Source: Bacteroidia bacterium
GTDB lineage: Bacteria > Bacteroidota > Bacteroidia > 2-12-FULL-35-15
NCBI GenBank assembly: GCA_030654175.1
Contig: JAURXZ010000001.1
Coordinates: 275,685 to 339,684 of the forward strand
Length of the DNA stretch: 64,000 nt
Direction of reading: 5' to 3'
The number at the start of each line of letters is the position of its first letter. Positions within the stretch are counted from its first letter, which is position 1. The position numbers and the translations under genes were made by a program. Under the pieces are notes generated by a model. That model was given only the letters and a program-made list of their open reading frames with translations, was not told the origin of the DNA and did not search any database. Positions 21,593-37,464 of this stretch are shown here, one piece after another.

Positions 21593-22693
21593 ATGGCATT
21601 ACAATGTGGTATTGTAGGATTACCTAATGTTGGTAAATCGACTCTTTTTAACTGCTTATCCAACGCAAAGGCGCAGGCAGCAAACTTTCCTTTTTGTACA
21701 ATTGAACCCAATATTGGGGTAATAACTGTTCCGGATGAGCGTCTTTCTACTCTGGAAAAATTAGTTAAGCCCGAACGCGTGGTTCCAACCACAGTTGAAA
21801 TTGTGGATATTGCCGGTCTTGTAAAAGGTGCAAGTAAAGGAGAAGGCTTAGGAAATAAATTCCTTGCCAATATTCGTGAAACAAATGCAATTATACATGT
21901 ATTGCGTTGTTTTGATGATCCCAATGTAGTGCATGTGGATGGTACCATTAATCCGGTTAGGGATAAAGAAATTATTGATACTGAATTGCAGTTGAAGGAT
22001 CTGGAAACTGTTGATGCTAAACTTAAACGTGTTGAAAAACAAGCCAAAACCGGTAATGATCAGGAAGCAAAAAAGGCGTATGAGGTATTGTTGAATTTGA
22101 AAAGCTTGTTAGAACAAGGTAAATCGGCCCGTTCAGCAAATCTTTCAGAAAAAGATATGGTCTATATTGCTGATTGCTGTTTATTAACTGTAAAACCTGT
22201 TTTATATGTTTGTAATGTGGATGAAGCCGCTGTAAAAGCTGGTAATAGTTACGTTGATGCTGTTAAAGAAGCGGTAAAAACAGAAAATGCGGAAGTATTG
22301 ATCATTACTGCTCAAATGGAAGCGGAAATCGCTAGTTTGGAAACTTATGAGGAACGTCAGATGTTTCTTGCAGATATGGGACTTGCAGAACCAGGTGTAA
22401 ATAAACTGATCAAAGCAGCATACCGTATATTGAACCTTCAAACCTATTTTACAGCAGGTGTTAAGGAAGTACGTGCCTGGACTATCATTAAAGGCATGAC
22501 AGCCCCACAGGCAGCCGGTGTTATTCATACTGATTTTGAAAAAGGGTTTATCAGAGCTGAAGTAATTAAGTATAACGATTTTATTACCCTTGGCTCAGAA
22601 GTAGCCTGTAAAGATGCAGGCAAAATGGGCGTTGAAGGAAAAGAATATGTGGTGAATGATGGTGATATGATGCATTTCCGATTTAATGTTTAA
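21593..22693 (+). CDS. ychF: redox-regulated ATPase YchF
   Basis: ALQCGIVGLPNVGKSTLFNCLSNAKAQAANFPFCTIEPNIGVI; C-terminal TGS domain. Confidence 0.97.
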   Translation: MALQCGIVGLPNVGKSTLFNCLSNAKAQAANFPFCTIEPNIGVITVPDERLSTLEKLVKPERVVPTTVEIVDIAGLVKGASKGEGLGNKFLANIRETNAIIHVLRCFDDPNVVHVDGTINPVRDKEIIDTELQLKDLETVDAKLKRVEKQAKTGNDQEAKKAYEVLLNLKSLLEQGKSARSANLSEKDMVYIADCCLLTVKPVLYVCNVDEAAVKAGNSYVDAVKEAVKTENAEVLIITAQMEAEIASLETYEERQMFLADMGLAEPGVNKLIKAAYRILNLQTYFTAGVKEVRAWTIIKGMTAPQAAGVIHTDFEKGFIRAEVIKYNDFITLGSEVACKDAGKMGVEGKEYVVNDGDMMHFRFNV

Positions 22694-22779: not shown

Positions 22780-24009
22780 ATGGATTCTAAAATTAGTAAA
22801 ACTCAACAGCAGCTACAATACATCGAGGATTTCCTGATTAAAATTGGCAACGGGGATTATAATTCTAAGCTTCCCATTACTGATGAAAATGATGAACAAT
22901 TGCTTGCTGTGCAAGTTGGGATAAATATGCTTGTAGAAGAGCTGAATGAAACCACTATTTCCAGAGTTTTTCTCAATAGTATATACAATGGAATAAATGA
23001 TGTGCTTATTGTTCTCAATGAAAATGGTGAAATTCAGAATACAAACCATGTTGTTGAAGATCTTTTATTTTATTCTCAGGCTGAATTATTAAACCAATCC
23101 TTTGAAAAATTATTTCCAATAAGCGACATTGACAACGTTAGAAATTCTATAAGAACCACCTTCGAACAAAACAAAATTCAAGAATTAGGTTTGAATCTTA
23201 AATCTAAAGATAACTCCATTATACCTGTTTCGTGTTCGTTTTCTCCTCTTCATAATAATAAACAGGAATATTCAGGCACCTTGCTGGTTGCCAAGAATAT
23301 TACAGCATTATTAAATGCAAAAAGCCAACTTCAGGAAAAAAATGATGAACTGAATTTATTTGTTTATAAAGCTTCCCACGATTTGAAAAGCCCTGTGGCC
23401 TCAATGATGGCACTCATGGATTTGCATAGGGGAAGCGGAAATGCAGAGGAAAAGGAGATCTACTGTGAAAAAATAGGCGATTGTATTTCCAAGTTAAATG
23501 TAATCATGTCAGATCTGTTGGTTTTGGGACGGATAACCTATGGGGAGCTGGAATTTGAGAAGACCAGTATTAAAAATGTAATTGATAGTATTTTAAAAAG
23601 TATTGAATTTGTGGAAGGTTTTAAAGATATTGATCTCAATATCGTTATAGAAGACCAGGCCCAATTTATTAATACAGAAAAAGGGTTATTTCAAACTATT
23701 TTATTAAACCTGATTGATAATGCTGTAAAATACAGACAAAAAGGGCCTGAGCGATCTTTTGTCAATATTCATATTTCCTCTCAGGGAAAAGGGATTTTAT
23801 TTAAAATTGAAGATAACGGAATAGGAATTCCTGAAACACTGCAAGCAAGCATCTTTAAAATGTTTTACCGTGCCACTTCTACATCAAAAGGTACAGGATT
23901 AGGCTTGTATATTGTAAAAACAAGTGTTATTAAATTAGGTGGAACTATTTCCTTTGAAAGTACTCCTGGTAAAGGCTCTACTTTCAAAATATACCTGCCC
24001 TCCAAATAA
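22780..24009 (+). CDS. cytosolic PAS-domain sensor histidine kinase
   Basis: PAS segment; HisKA FVYKASHDLKSPVASMMAL; HATPase NLIDNAVKYR, DNGIGIPE, GTGLGLYIVK. Confidence 0.93.
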   Translation: MDSKISKTQQQLQYIEDFLIKIGNGDYNSKLPITDENDEQLLAVQVGINMLVEELNETTISRVFLNSIYNGINDVLIVLNENGEIQNTNHVVEDLLFYSQAELLNQSFEKLFPISDIDNVRNSIRTTFEQNKIQELGLNLKSKDNSIIPVSCSFSPLHNNKQEYSGTLLVAKNITALLNAKSQLQEKNDELNLFVYKASHDLKSPVASMMALMDLHRGSGNAEEKEIYCEKIGDCISKLNVIMSDLLVLGRITYGELEFEKTSIKNVIDSILKSIEFVEGFKDIDLNIVIEDQAQFINTEKGLFQTILLNLIDNAVKYRQKGPERSFVNIHISSQGKGILFKIEDNGIGIPETLQASIFKMFYRATSTSKGTGLGLYIVKTSVIKLGGTISFESTPGKGSTFKIYLPSK

Positions 24010-24037: not shown

Positions 24038-24688
24038 TCAATCCAACAAGTTATATTTAACGGCATACATTACAATGCCTGCTGTATTTTTAGCTCCGGT
24101 TTTTAATAAGATATTTTCTCTGTATGAATCAATTGTTCTCGGACTCAGGCATAGTTTATCCGCTATTTCCTTATTGGTATATTCCTTACAAATCAGGTTA
24201 ACAACTACAACTTCTCTTTCGGAAAGAGACTGAGTTGAGAAGGAAGGATTAACTTTTTTTGACTTCACCAATCCCTTCAGCATTGCACTTGAAACACGTG
24301 CATCAAAATAATAACCATTTTCTAAAACAGAATATATTGCCCCCACCACCTCTTCAATATCCTTATCCTTTGGTAAAAATCCACTTGCGCCCTTTTCCAA
24401 CAGGTGTATAATAAATTCATCATCAGTATGCATTGATAATACAATAATTTTAACGGCTGGATAAGTCTGTTTTAATGCAATTGTTGTTTCAATACCATCC
24501 ATTACCGGCATTTCCAAATCCAACAGCACAATATCAGGTTGCGTTATTTTTAGTTTCTCCAATAATTCTTTTCCATTTGAAGCCTCCATTATTACATCCA
24601 GATTATCATATTCTTTTAGCAAAGAAATAAGCCCTTGCCTAAAAAGGTGTTGATCATCAACAACAGCTATTGTTTTTTTGAGTTTCAT
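24038..24688 (-). CDS. NarL/FixJ (LuxR-type) response regulator
   Basis: IAVVDDQHLFRQGLISLL...IVLLDLEMPVMDGIE; LSEREVVVVNLICKEYTNKEIADKLCLSPRTIDSYRENIL. Confidence 0.95.
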   Translation of the reverse strand: MKLKKTIAVVDDQHLFRQGLISLLKEYDNLDVIMEASNGKELLEKLKITQPDIVLLDLEMPVMDGIETTIALKQTYPAVKIIVLSMHTDDEFIIHLLEKGASGFLPKDKDIEEVVGAIYSVLENGYYFDARVSSAMLKGLVKSKKVNPSFSTQSLSEREVVVVNLICKEYTNKEIADKLCLSPRTIDSYRENILLKTGAKNTAGIVMYAVKYNLLD

Positions 24689-24724: not shown

Positions 24725-25540
24725 CTAATAAATAATAACTAAAGGTGTTTCAATTATTATTTTCGATTCCTTATTTCCTATTAAAATATATTGTAAAACA
24801 GAATTGGTGAGCTGTGCCCTGCTTAAAATACTTTTTAATCCAATTCCATCGCTTGATTCGGCTAACTGATGCATCATTTGGTTTGTTAATCCTTTTCCAT
24901 TATGAGTTATGGTGATGGTCATAAATTCACTTGTCGCATTTATTGTTAATTCAGTGGTTGAAGCGGAGGCATGTTTAATAATATTATTAATTATCTCTTT
25001 TATCAAACGGTACAATTGAATTTCGTTTTTTTTCTCGAGCTGGATGCTATCAACATTTATATTTAAATAAATATCAATTGCTCCGGATGAATTGACTTGT
25101 CGGCACAATTCTGTTATTCCTTTTATAAAACCCAATTTAACTAAAGTAGGTGGCATCAAATCATTTGAAATAACCCGGATAGCTGCAAGGGTATCTCCAA
25201 TCAATAGATTACTATTGCTTAACAGTGTTTCTGTAAGTATTTCATCATTCCGGTTTCGTTGAATTTTAGTAATGTTTAATTTTAAAACATTTAACATCAT
25301 ACCAATATCATCATGAATATTTGCAGCAATTTTTTTTCTTTCCTGTTCAGCTACTTCGATTGATGCATCCAGTAATTTGCGCTGATGGATGTTATCATTT
25401 TCCTTTATCAAAGCCTTATTGGCCATCATTTTTTTCTGATATAACAAAACAAAAAGCACAATAAATGAAACAAGGATTAATATTCCCATTGTTCCAAGAA
25501 CCACCAATGAAAACACGTCTATTTGATTCTTGTTTTCCAA
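24725..25540 (-). CDS. HisKA_3-type sensor histidine kinase with one TM
   Basis: QERKKIAANIHDDIGMMLNVLKLNI (H-box), HATPase IKEIINNIIKHASAST; TM near N-terminus. Confidence 0.9.
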   Translation of the reverse strand: MENKNQIDVFSLVVLGTMGILILVSFIVLFVLLYQKKMMANKALIKENDNIHQRKLLDASIEVAEQERKKIAANIHDDIGMMLNVLKLNITKIQRNRNDEILTETLLSNSNLLIGDTLAAIRVISNDLMPPTLVKLGFIKGITELCRQVNSSGAIDIYLNINVDSIQLEKKNEIQLYRLIKEIINNIIKHASASTTELTINATSEFMTITITHNGKGLTNQMMHQLAESSDGIGLKSILSRAQLTNSVLQYILIGNKESKIIIETPLVIIY

Positions 25541-28098: not shown

Positions 28099-30297
28099 AT
28101 GAAAACAAAAAACTACTTTAAAAAGACTGCTGTGTTTATTATTGCAGGATCTTTTATTTTTTATCAGGCAACAGGCCAAACTACGGGCTTGAGTGGTACT
28201 GGTCAAAACACCCAAGGAGCTGGAACCTTAGGTACGGATAATACTAATGTAGGAGCAAGTGCAGGGGGCAGCACAACTTCAGGTGCAACACAAAACGTTA
28301 TTGTAGGCAGAAGAGCCGGCTACTCTACCACTCAGGAGGATAACAATACTTTTATAGGATTTAATTCTGGCTACAACAATGGCTTAGGTGCAATCGCTGA
28401 ATTTGCGGGAAGAGAAAATACTTTTTTAGGAAGTCTTTCCGGATTTTCTAATCAAAACCAGGGCCATAATACAAATATTGGTTATGCTGCAGGTTATTCT
28501 AACCTAAGTGGTGCTTCAATTACTTGTGTAGGCCATAATGCAGGATATAATAACACTGCTTCACTAAATACTTTTATTGGTTCAGCCAGTGGTTTATACA
28601 ATACATCAGGGCCAAATAATACCTATTTAGGTACTACAACAGGTAATTTTAATGCTACAGGAGGAAATAACACTTTAGTGGGATATGAAGCAGGATATGG
28701 TGTTATTGGTAATAATTTCAGTTCCAATTCTATTTTTGGATATAGAGCTGGATATAATGTAACTACCGGAGGCTATAATGTTTTTATGGGAGATGTGGCT
28801 GGTTTTTCTAACTCATCAGGAACACGCAATGCCTTTCTTGGCAGTTCAAGTGGCGTTTCTAACACTACAGGATCCGATAATGTTTTTATGGGCTATCAGG
28901 CAGGTTTTGCTAACGCAACAGGAGGTAGCAATATCGCTATTGGTTCTTCCGCAGGTTATGCTAACGGTACAAATGCCAGTAATATTGCTATTGGAGTTTC
29001 TGCGCTTTACTATAATACGGCATTTGGTAATATTGGTATAGGAACAACTGCGCTTTATAGAAACACCAGCGGATCACAAAATACCGCTACTGGGTTTCAG
29101 GCACTAAATAATAATACCACTGGAGTAGGAGGTACTGCAATCGGATACCAGGCCCTTATTAACTCCACTGGTAACTATAATACGGCTACTGGAAGAAATG
29201 CGGTAAATAATAACACTACCGGCTATAATAATACGGGCTATGGAGTGAATACTCTTTATAGCACTAATACTGGCCACAATAATACAAGCTGTGGATTTAG
29301 TGCACTTTCTAACAACATTACCGGCTACAATAATACTGCTTTAGGGTCAGGTGCAAATGTTAGTAATGCAGGACTTAACAATGCTACAGCCATTGGTTAT
29401 AATGCGAGTGCAACACTAAGCAACTCAGTACAACTTGGTAACTCATCCACTACCAATGGTGTTTTTACCTCCAGTGGTTTGTATCAAACAAGCGATGGTC
29501 GTTTTAAAACAGGTGTACAGGAAGCAGTAAAAGGTTTGGAATTTATTAAAAAACTTCGACCGGTTACCTATAAAATGAATACCAATATGCTTGATGATTT
29601 GATCATACAAAATATGTCTGATAGTCTTAAGGCTCTGCATAAAATCGGAATGGACTTTGTCGGCTCGTCAGCCATCACTCACTCGGGCTTTATAGCACAG
29701 GAAGTTGAGTTGGCTGCTCAACAAGTTGGCTTCGCGTCTTCTATTGTGCACCTACCAGGCAATAGCAGCGATCCTTATGCTGTGTCGTATGCCGAGTTCG
29801 TTGTTCCATTAGTAAAAGCTGTTCAGGAATTAAGCAAAGCAGCAGATTCAACAAATACTGCAACAGCAAAAAATGATTCGATAAAAGATGCAAAAATGCA
29901 AGCTATGCAAAATAAAATCGATCAATTGGATGCGATTATTAATTCATGTTGTACTGCAGGTAAATCAATGCAACAGAATAACTCAAACTCAGAATCATTA
30001 TCTACTTCAAAGGATGTGGAACTGAGCAATAAAAATATTATTGTTCTTGACCAAAACGTTCCGAATCCATTTGCCGATCAAACCCTTATCAATTATTTTT
30101 TACCGGACAATATTACCCGTGCGCAAATTATATTTTTGGATCAATCAGGCAAGCTTATCAAAGCAGTTGATTTAACAGAGAAAGGTAAAGGAAGTTTAAA
30201 TGTATTCGCCAATGATTTAACAAGCGGCATTTATACCTACTCCTTAATTGTGGATGGGCAAACCATCGAAACTAAAAAAATGGTGAAAACGAAATAG
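28099..30297 (+). CDS. 17-aa-repeat tail-fibre/adhesin-like protein with S74 (endosialidase chaperone) domain and T9SS C-terminal sorting domain
   Basis: About 20 repeats of N-T-x-x-G-x-x-[AS]-G-[YF]-x-N; TSDGRFKTGVQEAVKGLEFIKKLRPVTYKMN...GFIAQEVE; C-term LDQNVPNPFADQTLINYFLP...GIYTYSLIVDGQTIETKKMVKTK. Confidence 0.9.
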   Translation: MKTKNYFKKTAVFIIAGSFIFYQATGQTTGLSGTGQNTQGAGTLGTDNTNVGASAGGSTTSGATQNVIVGRRAGYSTTQEDNNTFIGFNSGYNNGLGAIAEFAGRENTFLGSLSGFSNQNQGHNTNIGYAAGYSNLSGASITCVGHNAGYNNTASLNTFIGSASGLYNTSGPNNTYLGTTTGNFNATGGNNTLVGYEAGYGVIGNNFSSNSIFGYRAGYNVTTGGYNVFMGDVAGFSNSSGTRNAFLGSSSGVSNTTGSDNVFMGYQAGFANATGGSNIAIGSSAGYANGTNASNIAIGVSALYYNTAFGNIGIGTTALYRNTSGSQNTATGFQALNNNTTGVGGTAIGYQALINSTGNYNTATGRNAVNNNTTGYNNTGYGVNTLYSTNTGHNNTSCGFSALSNNITGYNNTALGSGANVSNAGLNNATAIGYNASATLSNSVQLGNSSTTNGVFTSSGLYQTSDGRFKTGVQEAVKGLEFIKKLRPVTYKMNTNMLDDLIIQNMSDSLKALHKIGMDFVGSSAITHSGFIAQEVELAAQQVGFASSIVHLPGNSSDPYAVSYAEFVVPLVKAVQELSKAADSTNTATAKNDSIKDAKMQAMQNKIDQLDAIINSCCTAGKSMQQNNSNSESLSTSKDVELSNKNIIVLDQNVPNPFADQTLINYFLPDNITRAQIIFLDQSGKLIKAVDLTEKGKGSLNVFANDLTSGIYTYSLIVDGQTIETKKMVKTK

Positions 30298-31933: not shown

Positions 31934-32587
31934 TTAAGGAGCGAGACGTTTAATCTTCCACTCCAAATTATTTTCCTCCAAAGTGTATGTAAGTCTGTCA
32001 TGCATATGATTTGGTCTTCCCTGCCAAAATTCAAAGTAAGTAGGTTTTACAATATAACCTCCCCAATAATCTGGCCGTGTTAAAGGGGGTTCCAATTTGT
32101 ATTTTGTATTTAACATAAATAATTCTTCTAATTCAGCACGGTTCTTTAATTCTTTACTTTGAAGAGAGGTCCAGTCTCCAACTCTGCTAATTTCAGAACG
32201 GGTTTTAAAATAAGCATCCGATTTTTCTTCCGTTTGTTTTATAGCAATCCCTTGTACTCTTATTTGGCGTTCTATTCCCGGCCAAAAAAAGTTTAAGGCC
32301 ACATGATTATTCACAACAATTTGTATCCCTTTGGCACTATTGTAATTGGTGAAAAATCCAAAACCTTCTTTTGAAAATTCTCTTAGCAAAACTACCCTTG
32401 AACTTGGAGTTAAATTATTTATTGTGGAAAGAACCATGGCATAAGGCTCCTCAATTTCTGATTTTAAAACCTGGTTAAACCATAATTCAAATTGTTCAAA
32501 TGGGGATGCCAAAGCTTCGGATTCTAATAATGGCATTTGACTATATTCTTTTCGTAATTGTTGTGTATTATCGTTCATGTTTTTCAT
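31934..32587 (-). CDS. pdxH: pyridoxamine 5'-phosphate oxidase
   Basis: SRVVLLREFSKEGFGFFTNYNSAKG, ALNFFWPGIERQIRVQG, RPDYWGGYIVKPTYFEFWQGRPNHMHDRLTY...IKRLAP. Confidence 0.95.
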   Translation of the reverse strand: MKNMNDNTQQLRKEYSQMPLLESEALASPFEQFELWFNQVLKSEIEEPYAMVLSTINNLTPSSRVVLLREFSKEGFGFFTNYNSAKGIQIVVNNHVALNFFWPGIERQIRVQGIAIKQTEEKSDAYFKTRSEISRVGDWTSLQSKELKNRAELEELFMLNTKYKLEPPLTRPDYWGGYIVKPTYFEFWQGRPNHMHDRLTYTLEENNLEWKIKRLAP

Positions 32588-32608: not shown

Positions 32609-35050
32609 TTACGTATTGGCAGCCATAGATTCTATTACTTCCATATTATAATTATCTTTTGTTTGTATATAGGCTACCCTGGCATGTTGTACAGCACCAA
32701 ATTTGTGCTTATCAACATCGGCCGATAAACCTAAATATACTTTTGATAAATTTAACATGCGGGCCCGTTTTAATACTTGATAAATGGCTTGTTTGTAAAC
32801 CTTAAATTCTTTGTTATAATCATAATCAATACCTGCAATCATTGGTGCTATATGCGTTTCAGTAATATATGTCCATATTACTGCCACAGCTTTTCTTTCG
32901 GGACGAGGATCAAATTCAGGCTTAAGCTTCAAAACAATAAACTCCCAATTGGCATGTTTTGAAAGTTTTTTTAGAATGTCTTTTGGGTAAGCGAACATGT
33001 TTAAACCTCTATTTTTTTGCTCAACTTGTAAGTAAAGGTTATAGTAGTATTCTGTTTCTTCTTCTGTTAGTTCTTTTTTATATTCAATTTCAAAAGCATT
33101 TTCATTTCTAAATACTTCTGTTCTAACATTTTTTCTGTTACGATGAGATAGCGATTCAATAAGTTCGTCTTTTGTATCCCATTTCAGGTTATCAATAATG
33201 TTAGAGTTAGGCATATTAACAGGGGCAAATCCTTCTTTTAAAAGTATTTTTTTTAATTCAATATCGTCTTTATCAAAATCTCTAAGTAATAATGAATTAG
33301 CATTTATCGATTCCTGAATTTTTGCAACCCTTTCCAAAAGCAGGGTAAATGCATCTTTCCATTTGGGATGATTAGGATTGATAAAATAATGATGCCCTTC
33401 GGTGAGCATAGAACCCATCGTTAATGTTTTTGAGGTAAGATAGTAAGGATCAGTTTTTCTTTTTTCTTCTATTTGAATAGATACTGATTCTAATGCCAGC
33501 ATATCATCTTTAGAAATTCCTGAAGTAAAAAAAGTTGCTAATACCGGCTTTTTATCTTTATCACGAATAATAAAATAATAAAAATCCCAGTTATCTTCCG
33601 TTTTTGGGTTATTGCTAAAAGCTTCCTCTAAAGATAAAAGTCCTTCCCAGTCAAACGACCCATTTGCACCGAGTAATTCATCCCATTCTGTTTTATTGAT
33701 CCCTTTAATGCTTTTTTCTTCCTGTACTGTTAACTCTTCATTTAAATTTGTTTCTTGTTTATTTATAGGAAGAAATGAGTTAGCCTCTATTTTAGTTTTA
33801 AATGCTTTGCGCACATCGTCTATCGTTCTGTTTTCTTCTTCCAATACCTTAGGGTAATGATAAACCAATGCATCTACAAAGTCCTTTATTTCGTTTTTTT
33901 TCACCTGGCGGTTAATTGAAAAGCGCACTCCGGTATTTCTAACAGAAACAGCAGGGAACAGAGCAAGATTAACAAAAAAACCATCATCTAATAAACGTTT
34001 GACCATATTGTAGCCCACTTTTGGTTGTCCCATAGCCACAAAGCCAATAGGAGTAAAAGGATCGGACATAACCGTAAGGTCTGTATTAGCAATTAACTGG
34101 CTGCAATAATCAATATTTTCACGCAATTCTTTCTGTATTCGATAGATATCATCCGATAAATGAATTTTTGCAGAAGCTATCGCAGCCCCTATTATTGGTG
34201 GAGCCAAAGGATGAGAATAAATTAAGGGACCTCCAAAAATACGGACCTTTCTAAAGGTTTCTTCGTTCGGAAAAATAGCTAATCCCCCTGTAACTCCGAA
34301 ACCTTTTCCCATTGTTGTCATGAGCATTATTTTTTCGTGTTTGGGTACTTTACTATTGGTATAGCCACTTCCATTTTTCCCATGCCAGCTCATCCCATGC
34401 GCATCATCCACATAAACATACAATTGTTCGTATTTTTCCATTAAGTATAATAAACTATCAAATGGAGCCACGTCTCCATACATAGAATACACTCCATCTA
34501 TCAAATACCAGATTTTTTTATGTGTTTTGCTCAATTGTTTTAATTGCTTTTCCAACATATCCATATTGCTATGACGTATCATTTCAATAGGCACACCTTT
34601 TTGACGAAGCAACTGAGCGGCAGTTTGTACACTAAAATGAACCTGCTGATCTAAAATTATAGCATCCTCACTTGTAATAAGTGTTGGAATTACTGAAATA
34701 TGTGCAGAGGATGTGGAGGAATAGGTAAGCACATGCCTGTTATCAAACATTTGAGATAGATAATCCTCTAATTGTACATTAATACCTGAAGATAGATAAC
34801 CACGGGAAATACCATACTGGGTTCCATATTTTTGTGTAAAATCAATGGCCCCATCTTTTAAGCGCTGGTCTAATTCTAAACCAAGGTAACCACAGGTTCC
34901 AAAATTTAAAAACTCCTTTTCAAAAATCGGTAGTTTTCTATTCGACATTGCATTTACATCCGATACTAAATGAATTACGCCTCTTTGTTTTGCATCCGTA
35001 AGTAATTCATCAATTGTATCCAAAGAGTTGTTGTGATTGATTTTTGCCAT
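32609..35050 (-). CDS. fusion: PLP-dependent alpha-oxoamine-synthase-like aminotransferase + C-terminal GNAT-like acyltransferase domain
   Basis: LNFGTCGYLGLELDQRLKDGAIDFTQKYGTQYGISRGYLSSG, YVYVDDAHGMSWHGKNGSG, MTTMGKGFGVTGG (PLP Lys); C-terminal about 380 aa GNAT-like (RNRKNVRTEVFRNENAFEIEY...KAVAVIWTYITETHIAPMIAGIDYDYNKEFKVYKQAIYQVLKRA). Confidence 0.85.
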   Translation of the reverse strand: MAKINHNNSLDTIDELLTDAKQRGVIHLVSDVNAMSNRKLPIFEKEFLNFGTCGYLGLELDQRLKDGAIDFTQKYGTQYGISRGYLSSGINVQLEDYLSQMFDNRHVLTYSSTSSAHISVIPTLITSEDAIILDQQVHFSVQTAAQLLRQKGVPIEMIRHSNMDMLEKQLKQLSKTHKKIWYLIDGVYSMYGDVAPFDSLLYLMEKYEQLYVYVDDAHGMSWHGKNGSGYTNSKVPKHEKIMLMTTMGKGFGVTGGLAIFPNEETFRKVRIFGGPLIYSHPLAPPIIGAAIASAKIHLSDDIYRIQKELRENIDYCSQLIANTDLTVMSDPFTPIGFVAMGQPKVGYNMVKRLLDDGFFVNLALFPAVSVRNTGVRFSINRQVKKNEIKDFVDALVYHYPKVLEEENRTIDDVRKAFKTKIEANSFLPINKQETNLNEELTVQEEKSIKGINKTEWDELLGANGSFDWEGLLSLEEAFSNNPKTEDNWDFYYFIIRDKDKKPVLATFFTSGISKDDMLALESVSIQIEEKRKTDPYYLTSKTLTMGSMLTEGHHYFINPNHPKWKDAFTLLLERVAKIQESINANSLLLRDFDKDDIELKKILLKEGFAPVNMPNSNIIDNLKWDTKDELIESLSHRNRKNVRTEVFRNENAFEIEYKKELTEEETEYYYNLYLQVEQKNRGLNMFAYPKDILKKLSKHANWEFIVLKLKPEFDPRPERKAVAVIWTYITETHIAPMIAGIDYDYNKEFKVYKQAIYQVLKRARMLNLSKVYLGLSADVDKHKFGAVQHARVAYIQTKDNYNMEVIESMAANT

Positions 35051-35205
35051 AAAATGAATTTATATATTTTAAAAATGTACCTTTGTATTTAGACTTATAT
35101 TAAACGAAAAAAAACAGTAATTTGTTACATTATCGATTTAATTAGTTATAATATATTGATTATTAGTAACAATAACGAACCGAAATATCAAATGATTAAT
35201 TTTTA

Positions 35206-35592
35206 ATGAAAAAGATGCTATTAGAAAATGAACATGCTAAATTTGTTATAGAGGATGGTATTCTTATCGGATCTTTTAAATGTGAATTTGTAGATTTAGA
35301 TCTTGCAAATAAAATTACTGGATATAGATTAGAGCTCCAAAATGGAAAGAACTTCCCCATATTATCAAATATTAAAGCAGTAAAAAGTAGTACGAAATCT
35401 GCTCGTGATTTTTTGGCTTCTGAAGAAGGCTGTAAGGGGGTTGTAGCAGCAGCTGTGCTTATTGATTCTCCTATAAGCAGTATGATAGGCAATTTTTTTA
35501 TCAGGGTTAGCAAACCATTAAGACCCACTAAAATATTTACAAATGAAACAGAAGCAAAAAAATGGTTGGCCCAATTTGTGAAAAAAGAATAA
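35206..35592 (+). CDS. tandem paralog 1 (type A), STAS/SpoIIAA-like (DUF7793-like?) protein
   Basis: LLENEHAKFVIEDGILIGSFK...ARDFLASEEGCKGVVAAAVLIDSPISSMIGNFFIRVSKPLRPTKIFTNETEAKKWLAQFVKKE. Confidence 0.8.
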   Translation: MKKMLLENEHAKFVIEDGILIGSFKCEFVDLDLANKITGYRLELQNGKNFPILSNIKAVKSSTKSARDFLASEEGCKGVVAAAVLIDSPISSMIGNFFIRVSKPLRPTKIFTNETEAKKWLAQFVKKE

Positions 35593-35601
35593 AAAAATAG
35601 C

Positions 35602-35676
35602 ATAAATAAAGTAACTATTCAAGTTCTTTTGGATAATGAATTTAACTGGGGATTTTCCAAGGGATTATTTTTTTGA
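35602..35676 (+). pseudogene. decayed N-terminus of a type-B tandem paralog
   Basis: TAGCATAAATAAAGTAACT...CTTTTGGATAATGAAT versus TAGCATGGAGAAAGCAACT...CTTTTGGATAATGAAT of paralog 3; ATG to ATA; reads INKVTIQVLLDNEFNWGFSKGLFF*. Confidence 0.75.
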
Positions 35677-35714
35677 ATAGTTCCAACCAGTATGTCAAGG
35701 CCAATAAAAATAAG

Positions 35715-36101
35715 ATGAAAAAGACACTATTAGAAAATAATGAAATTAGTCTGGATTTAGAAGATGGAATTGTTACGGCAAAATTTAAAGCAGAACACTT
35801 TGATTTACGGATGGTTAAGAAGTTGGTTGAAGATAGAAAAAAGGTATTCAATGGCATACTTTACCCTGTGATTGCCAATGTAATGTCTTTGAAAAGTTCT
35901 ACAAAAGCAGCGCGTGATTTTTTTGCTTCCGAAAGTGGTTGTGAAGGAATTATAGCAACAGCTGTGATTGTTAATTCTCCGGTAGGAAGCATTATTGGCA
36001 ATTTTTATATTCGTATTAGCAAACCTCTGCGGCCTGTTAAATTATTTACTGATAAATTAAAAGCGAAAAAATGGCTTACCAAATTTGTAAAGAACGATTA
36101 A
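35715..36101 (+). CDS. tandem paralog 2 (type A)
   Basis: MKKTLLENNEISLDLEDGIV...ARDFFASESGCEGIIATAVIVNSPVGSIIGNFYIRISKPLRPVKLFTDKLKAKKWLTKFVKND; start at 35715 matches paralogs 1 and 4. Confidence 0.8.
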   Translation: MKKTLLENNEISLDLEDGIVTAKFKAEHFDLRMVKKLVEDRKKVFNGILYPVIANVMSLKSSTKAARDFFASESGCEGIIATAVIVNSPVGSIIGNFYIRISKPLRPVKLFTDKLKAKKWLTKFVKND

Positions 36102-36110
36102 AATATTAGC

Positions 36111-36524
36111 ATGGAGAAAGCAACTGAAAATATAAAGCTCCTTTTGGATAATGAATACAGCAAGATCGAGCTATCGAATGGAATTATTATAGCAACATGG
36201 AAAGCCTCCATTATTAATTTAGACATTGCAAAAAATGCGGTTGGCAGCAGATTGTCGGTTACTGCCGGGCAAAACTATCCTGTTTTGATCAAGATGAAAT
36301 CAATAAAAGAAAGTACAAAAGAGGCAAGAGATTTTTTATCTTCCGAAAAAGGTTGTGATGGTATAATTGCTGGGGCCATATATGTTGATTCTATAATAGG
36401 GAATATGCTTGCTACTTTTTTTATTTACCTGAATAAACCAAGAATTCCTACCAAAATATTTAAAGACGAATCAAAAGCAATAGAATGGTTAGAGCAGTTT
36501 GTGGTTAAAGATATTAAGAATTGA
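36111..36524 (+). CDS. tandem paralog 3 (type B)
   Basis: LLLDNEYSKIELSNGIIIATWK...AGQNYPVLIKMKSIKESTKEARDFLSSEKGCDGIIAGAIYVDSIIGNMLATFFIYLNKPRIPTKIFKDESKAIEWLEQFVVKD. Confidence 0.8.
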   Translation: MEKATENIKLLLDNEYSKIELSNGIIIATWKASIINLDIAKNAVGSRLSVTAGQNYPVLIKMKSIKESTKEARDFLSSEKGCDGIIAGAIYVDSIIGNMLATFFIYLNKPRIPTKIFKDESKAIEWLEQFVVKDIKN

Positions 36525-36639
36525 TTTTTTATAAATATCAACTAATAATTGATCGTTGCTAATTTTACTACTATACATGGATATTTCAAATTAAAAAATC
36601 TACCCTCCCAAACAGTATTTTTATAATTTACATTTATCA

Positions 36640-37026
36640 ATGAAAAATTTGCTACTGGAAAATGATGAAGTAAGGATAGAATCAGAAGATGGAATTCTTT
36701 TCGCTATCTGGAAAAGCTCATTTATTGATTTGAATATTGCTCAACAGGCAATAGTTTATCGATTAGAAGCAACGAGGTATATTCCATATCCTACTATAAT
36801 AAACATTAGATCAGTAAAAAGTATCAATAAGCCAGCTCGTGATTTTTTAGCTTCAGAAAAAGGAAGTGAAGGAATTATTGCCGCAGCAATGTTAATAGAC
36901 TCGAGTTTGGGAAGAATATTAGGCAATTTTTTTATTCAAATTAATAAACCATTAAAACCGACAAAAATTTTTACAAATGAAATAAAAGCAAAAAAATGGT
37001 TGGCCAAATATGTTAATAAAGAATAA
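36640..37026 (+). CDS. tandem paralog 4 (type A)
   Basis: MKNLLLENDEVRIESEDGILFAIWK...ARDFLASEKGSEGIIAAAMLIDSSLGRILGNFFIQINKPLKPTKIFTNEIKAKKWLAKYVNKE. Confidence 0.8.
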   Translation: MKNLLLENDEVRIESEDGILFAIWKSSFIDLNIAQQAIVYRLEATRYIPYPTIINIRSVKSINKPARDFLASEKGSEGIIAAAMLIDSSLGRILGNFFIQINKPLKPTKIFTNEIKAKKWLAKYVNKE

Positions 37027-37035
37027 AAAAATAGT

Positions 37036-37464
37036 ATGAGAAAAAATATTAAAGAGAAAACCCTTCTTATAGATGATGAATATGGCAAGTTTGAACTAGA
37101 AAAGGGGATATTGATCGGAACCTGGAAAAAATCTTTTATTGATCTAGCCACAGCAGAAAAAACGGTTAATGGTAGATTAAAGATTGCAGCCGGACAGAAA
37201 TACCCTTTTTTAGTGAAGATCAAATCAATAAGAGAAAGTACAAAAGAAGCAAGAGTTTATTTAGCCTCTGAAAAAGCTTGTTTAGGTATACTTGCGGGTG
37301 CTATCTGCGTTGATTCTGCTTTAGAAAATATGGTTGCTACAGTTTTTTTATACATGAGTAAGCCTGTTGTTCCTACCAAAATATTTACGGACGAGACAAA
37401 AGCAAAAGAATGGTTAGCGCAGTTTGTTGAGCATGATTGTAATGAAATTTCTGTTGAAAAATAA
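37036..37464 (+). CDS. tandem paralog 5 (type B)
   Basis: LLIDDEYGKFELEKGILIGTWKKSFIDL...AGQKYPFLVKIKSIRESTKEARVYLASEKACLGILAGAICVDSALENMVATVFLYMSKPVVPTKIFTDETKAKEWLAQFVEHD. Confidence 0.8.
   Translation: MRKNIKEKTLLIDDEYGKFELEKGILIGTWKKSFIDLATAEKTVNGRLKIAAGQKYPFLVKIKSIRESTKEARVYLASEKACLGILAGAICVDSALENMVATVFLYMSKPVVPTKIFTDETKAKEWLAQFVEHDCNEISVEK

Follow-up and report, generated by a model that had tools for sequence, protein, structure and literature searches.

Stand-alone sensor proteins, H-NOX among them, regulate a co-transcribed kinase in trans. In the alpha-hydroxyketone quorum sensing systems cqs and lqs (CqsA/CqsS and LqsA/LqsS/LqsR), the gene encoding a synthase of the AONS superfamily neighbours those of a sensor kinase and a regulator (PMC3376566), and in bacterial ceramide synthesis Spt and bCerS make an N-acylated ketone (PMC11087976). 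The SpoIIAA-like proteins of Shewanella (2ook and 2q3l) have been likened to CRAL-TRIO proteins, which carry nonpolar molecules (PMC2954212). Here we describe a locus that can be compared with each of these systems, found in a stretch of 64,000 nucleotides from a Bacteroidia bacterium (the window, meaning the whole stretch analysed), where genomic context suggests that proteins of the Pfam family DUF7793 serve a so far undescribed signalling system as separate sensor subunits.

The locus contains an array of five consecutive genes spanning positions 35206-37464, all on the + strand and with intact frames of 128-142 codons, whose products share pairwise amino-acid identities of 38-57%. A sequence-only reading of the window had reported five same-strand paralogs at this place and had named DUF7793 as a possible family; both points were borne out, as all five proteins match PF25056 (DUF7793) over their full length with 108.7-118.4 bits (2e-31 to 2e-34), so far above the curated cut-off of 26 bits that the similarity of the copies is not due to chance. 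The genes are copy 1 (35206-35592; PF25056 2e-34), copy 2 (35715-36101; 6e-32), copy 3 (36111-36524; 1e-33), copy 4 (36640-37026; 1.5e-31) and copy 5 (37036-37464; 2e-31), where the start of copy 2 was set at the ATG at 35715, which aligns with the other copies, the listed ORF opening at a TTG at 35673. No NCBIfam model matches any of the five proteins, and DUF7793 is a Pfam family with no assigned function, for which no naming paper was found in our literature search. Against the putative orthologs in a three-gene array of another species (locus L041), dN/dS is about 0.12-0.17 where computable, with dS near saturation, and these low values are consistent with a maintained coding function. Scans for promoters and terminators gave counts no higher than those in shuffled sequences. 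The source genome holds 11 PF25056 matches, and the family is present in 33 of 36 genomes of the genus, in arrays whose size varies widely (1-6 copies). A related genome carries a six-gene tandem array without linkage to the fusion enzyme described below (L086, G018:C20), and a copy with an in-frame TAG at G000:C19:11597-11875 is apparently a pseudogene.

Relationships among the copies were studied with a tree of 99 family members and with a 13-row tree to which the AU test was applied. Two sub-types in the order A A B A B had been proposed from the sequence, and this residue pattern is present in the alignment of the five copies; as a lineage, only one of the two sub-types stood. In the 99-row tree the type B copies 3 and 5 form one clade with copy 3 of L041 (100/99). 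Of the type A copies, copy 2 groups with its putative ortholog, L041 copy 2 (100/96), copy 1 lies near its own, L041 copy 1, and copy 4, despite its A-like residues, is placed nearer the B clade. A single clade of copies 1, 2 and 4 was rejected (p-AU 0.013 in the 13-row tree), and the corresponding split of five rows in the 99-row tree is trivial, that tree being unrooted. Since the A copies form no clade and the B clade includes L041 copy 3, type B is, on sequence grounds, a lineage common to two species, and 'A' is a resemblance class only. The opposite possibility, also raised by the sequence-only reading, that A and B are one undifferentiated clade with lineage-specific duplications, agrees with the lack of an A clade and with the duplications, but not with the B type, which is distinct and occurs across species. 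Across the genus, array position does not predict sub-type. The distances from copy 2 to copy 4 and from copy 3 to copy 5 are both exactly 925 bp, and a 47-bp stretch after copy 1 (35596-35642, + strand; repeat D5) resembles the beginning of copy 3, with an alignment score of 37 that 0 of 1000 shuffles reached, and is probably what remains of the start of a type-B gene that has since decayed; its alignment with copy 5 is not significant (174 of 1000 shuffles). In the simplest reading, this decayed start and the 925-bp period suggest that the array grew through duplicated A-B two-gene units, one B having since decayed.

Concerning the fold, an AlphaFold2 model of a DUF7793 protein (pLDDT 78.7) found its best Foldseek matches in the PDB among the SpoIIAA-like proteins 2q3l and 2ook, the STAS protein 4xs5, SpoIIAA, RsbS and SiaC, with values of 4.3e-4 for 2q3l, 8.8e-4 for 4xs5 (TM 0.64-0.69) and 1e-3 for SpoIIAA. 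The predicted fold is SpoIIAA/STAS-like, in agreement with the resemblance first suspected from the letters. Membership of PF11964 (SpoIIAA-like), a profile which that reading had listed for checking, did not survive the profile search, where three copies score 14.4-15.6 bits and two are not listed, the cut-off being 25 bits. DUF7793 has in common with the Shewanella proteins the fold class and a conserved C-terminal F..A..WL cluster, which corresponds to the second of the conserved clusters reported in those proteins (PMC2954212); it differs in its sequence, which stays below the Pfam cut-off, and in that their first cluster, made of ligand/switch and cavity residues, is not evident in the DUF7793 alignment. 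Within DUF7793, Arg67 is nearly invariant (127/137). In the Foldseek viral library, structural matches were found in proteins of large algal viruses, and a further match from a large virus carries the annotation DUF7793.

An intergenic region of 155 bp (35051-35205) separates the array from a divergent gene on the - strand (32609-35050) that encodes a fusion protein of 813 aa, in which residues ~1-400 belong to the alpha-oxoamine-synthase (AONS) family and residues ~430-813 are a tandem GNAT region resembling FemX. The N-terminal part matches PF00155 (1.3e-20) and falls in the BioF/Kbl/SPT/CqsA superfamily; it matches NF005697 (PRK07505-like) with 1.7e-83, below the model cut-off, and has sequence matches to AONS, SPT and CqsA in the PDB, in which the PLP-lysine region is aligned; in the alignments with SPT and AONS the DDAH and K motifs line up. 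The protein is no CqsA equivalog (75.4 bits with the CqsA-type model NF005526, equivalog cut-off 428 bits), and it reaches 120.9-160.7 bits with the SPT models NF047599, NF047600 and NF047603, whose equivalog cut-offs are 500-670. Pfam GNAT/FemAB matches to the C-terminal ~380 residues are weak, and because a PDB sequence search with this half gave no match, structures were compared instead: the model (pLDDT 81.3) matches FemX in Foldseek with 1.4e-12, that is, a tandem GNAT fold. By analogy with bacterial ceramide synthesis, it is possible that the fusion runs SPT-plus-N-acyltransferase chemistry, its SPT-like and N-acyltransferase-type domains being of the kinds that could yield an N-acylated ketone. 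It differs from the Spt/bCerS/CerR route in that a single fused protein is present, which lies below the SPT cut-offs and has a FemX-like fold rather than a demonstrated homology to bCerS.

In a survey of 296 genomes of the class, in which loci were picked by the enzyme, DUF7793 adjoins 24 of 26 fusion copies, mostly in divergent orientation, the exceptions being L183 and L199 only, and 46 of 47 fusion-linked DUF7793 proteins fall within one clade of 65. As the loci were not selected by DUF7793, the linkage is no artefact of such a selection. Unfused homologs of the enzyme were inspected at eight loci (L200-L207), none of which has DUF7793 nearby, and all of which have a kinase adjoining or one gene off. 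At L201-L207 these homologs, of ~420 aa, stand beside kinases, often together with a response regulator, in a layout like that of cqs/lqs.

In loci of other families the fusion gene is followed by a divergent DUF7793 gene and then by those of a histidine kinase and a response regulator (L043, L044, L045, L046, L052, L180, L184, L188, L189, L192 and L198), so that, as in cqs/lqs, an AONS-superfamily synthase is paired with the genes of a histidine kinase and a response regulator. The differences are also clear: the synthase is far below the CqsA-type cut-off and carries a fused FemX-like GNAT, there are extra STAS-like subunits, and kinases of the window type are soluble HAMP-PAS proteins, whereas the cqs/lqs receptors are six-helix membrane proteins. 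The gap from DUF7793 to the next regulator ranges from -25 to +98 bp. In the genus, where loci were chosen by DUF7793, a regulator lies directly downstream in 15 of 61 DUF7793 units (a count that pools kinases with AraC regulators sharing the module described next), against kinases in 6 of 374 background genes.

Regulators of differing output beside DUF7793 share a HAMP-like module of ~49 residues ending in NMLGEEL, followed by HisKA, HisKA_2 or HisKA_3 domains, by large MASE1-like kinases or by AraC factors. At L049, L182, L186, L194, L196 and L217 what is attached to the module, in place of a kinase, is a DNA-binding domain of the AraC type. With the Pfam HAMP model PF00672 (cut-off 25 bits), two proteins that carry the module twice score 33.1 and 31.6 bits; in others the match is below the cut-off or absent. 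When 13 whole genomes were searched for the module, 20 genes that carry it came up, of which 17 adjoin DUF7793, and the pattern was the same when the module model was rebuilt without rows from the searched genomes; the three remaining genes are the kinase of the window, the G018 ortholog of this kinase and a single borderline hit. At L183, L199 and L200-L207, loci that lack DUF7793, the neighbouring kinases are without the module, and the module accompanies DUF7793 also where there is no fusion enzyme (L060, L062, L071, L075, L091, L208, L239-L241). With respect to the literature found, the linkage of DUF7793 to AONS-GNAT fusions and to HAMP-module regulators is new.

The remark of the sequence-only reading that no kinase lies alongside the array is literally true but misleading. 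At L041, YchF is followed by the HAMP-module kinase, by the fusion gene on the opposite strand and by three DUF7793 genes. In the window, YchF (21593-22693) is followed on the + strand by a soluble histidine kinase at 22780-24009, with a HAMP-like module (3.6e-10) and PAS, HisKA and HATPase domains according to Pfam, whose N-terminal stretch reads ...GINMLVEELNETT... and which is 64% identical to the L041 kinase. By sequence and gene order it is the ortholog of the kinase that stands beside the fusion in L041, displaced here by an insertion of ~8.6 kb relative to L041 (24010-32608, between kinase and fusion gene); in G018, too, the kinase is no longer adjacent. The insertion contains genes for a NarL-type response regulator (24038-24688), a HisKA_3 kinase (24725-25540) and a T9SS-tail protein (28099-30297), as well as pdxH (31934-32587), next to the gene of the PLP enzyme. 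Between 30782 and 31718 a receiver-domain ORF is followed by a HisKA-like fragment of 118 aa that has no ATPase domain, and the two may be a truncated two-component pair.

We propose that DUF7793 proteins are input subunits, acting in trans, of HAMP-module regulators, and that members of the subfamily linked to AONS detect what the fusion makes or report on it; reading this from genomic context, we hold the two sides, for and against, to be evenly balanced. The cytoplasmic STAS/SpoIIAA-like proteins of the array would be the inputs to soluble regulators, each docking physically on the HAMP-like module and thereby switching the attached kinase or AraC output, and in the source genome the cognate kinase would be the protein at 22780-24009. 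We infer, as to ligand and direction of signalling, that the subfamily of the array would be dedicated to the product or activity of the divergent AONS-FemX-like fusion, which is expected to join an amino acid to a fatty acyl thioester by condensation, the amine being acylated or aminoacylated in a further step. Duplication of A-B units would have supplied a set of related input subunits serving one sensing system, which may be the reason for the several copies. The proposed logic, with a small sensor protein encoded just before a soluble kinase, is like that of H-NOX, whose fold is unrelated to DUF7793. The main weakness of this proposal is that DUF7793 genes are for the most part orphans, the 13 genomes having ~115 of them and 20 module genes; it also has against it that the kinase is not adjacent in the window and in G018, and, with the Shewanella ligand/switch residues not evident, the binding of a small molecule by DUF7793 is a conjecture.

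These observations have to be weighed also under other explanations. The top structural matches, which include the proteins likened to CRAL-TRIO carriers (PMC2954212), and the tight linkage to an acyl-condensing enzyme would fit DUF7793 proteins that are soluble carriers or chaperones of the hydrophobic product of the fusion, similar to CRAL-TRIO/Sec14 proteins, a role already proposed for the Shewanella SpoIIAA-like proteins, the linked regulators merely controlling expression; we think this unlikely, as the linkage to the HAMP-like module persists where the fusion enzyme is absent and the conserved switch/cavity residues of the SpoIIAA-like family are not evident. The same persistence in fusion-free genomes, where DUF7793 pairs with module regulators all the same, weakens the idea that these proteins act on the AONS-GNAT fusion directly, as allosteric subunits comparable to the small ones that regulate serine palmitoyltransferase in eukaryotes, with a secondary kinase link. 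Such a role would account for the 24 of 26 fusions that adjoin DUF7793 and for its absence beside the unfused homologs examined, but of the 296 genomes surveyed 134 have DUF7793 and 45 a strong homolog of the enzyme, and we regard such a role as quite improbable.

Classical partner switching, in which the proteins would be anti-anti-sigma factors phosphorylated on Ser/Thr by a kinase of the RsbW/SpoIIAB type, is suggested by the STAS-type fold, with SpoIIAA, RsbS and SiaC among the matches, and by a T at the phosphosite in four of the five array copies. Copy 4 has N at this position, the corresponding column varies among T, S, D, N and E in the family, 17 of the 25 AONS- and module-linked copies carrying an acidic residue (D or E) there, and T/S/D/N is an ordinary helix N-cap pattern too. 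At the surveyed loci DUF7793 recurrently adjoins two-component kinases, response regulators, AraC factors or the AONS fusion, with no linked sigma factor, and neither an anti-sigma kinase nor a PP2C phosphatase was recognised near DUF7793 genes there. Given the unconserved phosphosite and the absence of anti-sigma kinases among the neighbours, partner switching was rejected as very improbable indeed, in line with the earlier judgement that such an assignment is unsupported. A different objection concerns the array itself, which might be a neutral, lineage-specific amplification with redundant products and no separate roles for A and B: copy number in the genus varies from 1 to 6 per array, the A copies form no clade and one copy has decayed to a stub. 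Five intact frames with low dN/dS against the putative L041 orthologs, and a B type that is a supported clade spanning species, make this doubtful in our judgement, and we put its probability low.

Returning to DUF7793 as input subunit, a domain of unknown function that is widespread in the class (134 of 296 genomes) gains a context that bears on function. A probable partner can be named, the HAMP-like module common to several kinase types and to AraC factors, and one DUF7793 subfamily is tied to a specific biosynthetic enzyme. A more speculative possibility, which we consider rather unlikely, is that the AONS-FemX-like fusion makes a lipid-like signal that a single DUF7793 protein or several of them sense in order to switch soluble HAMP-module kinases or AraC factors, as a class-wide counterpart of cqs/lqs in Bacteroidota with an interchangeable cytoplasmic receptor subunit. 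If this idea is true, it would represent a route of cell signalling for which we found no described counterpart in Bacteroidota.
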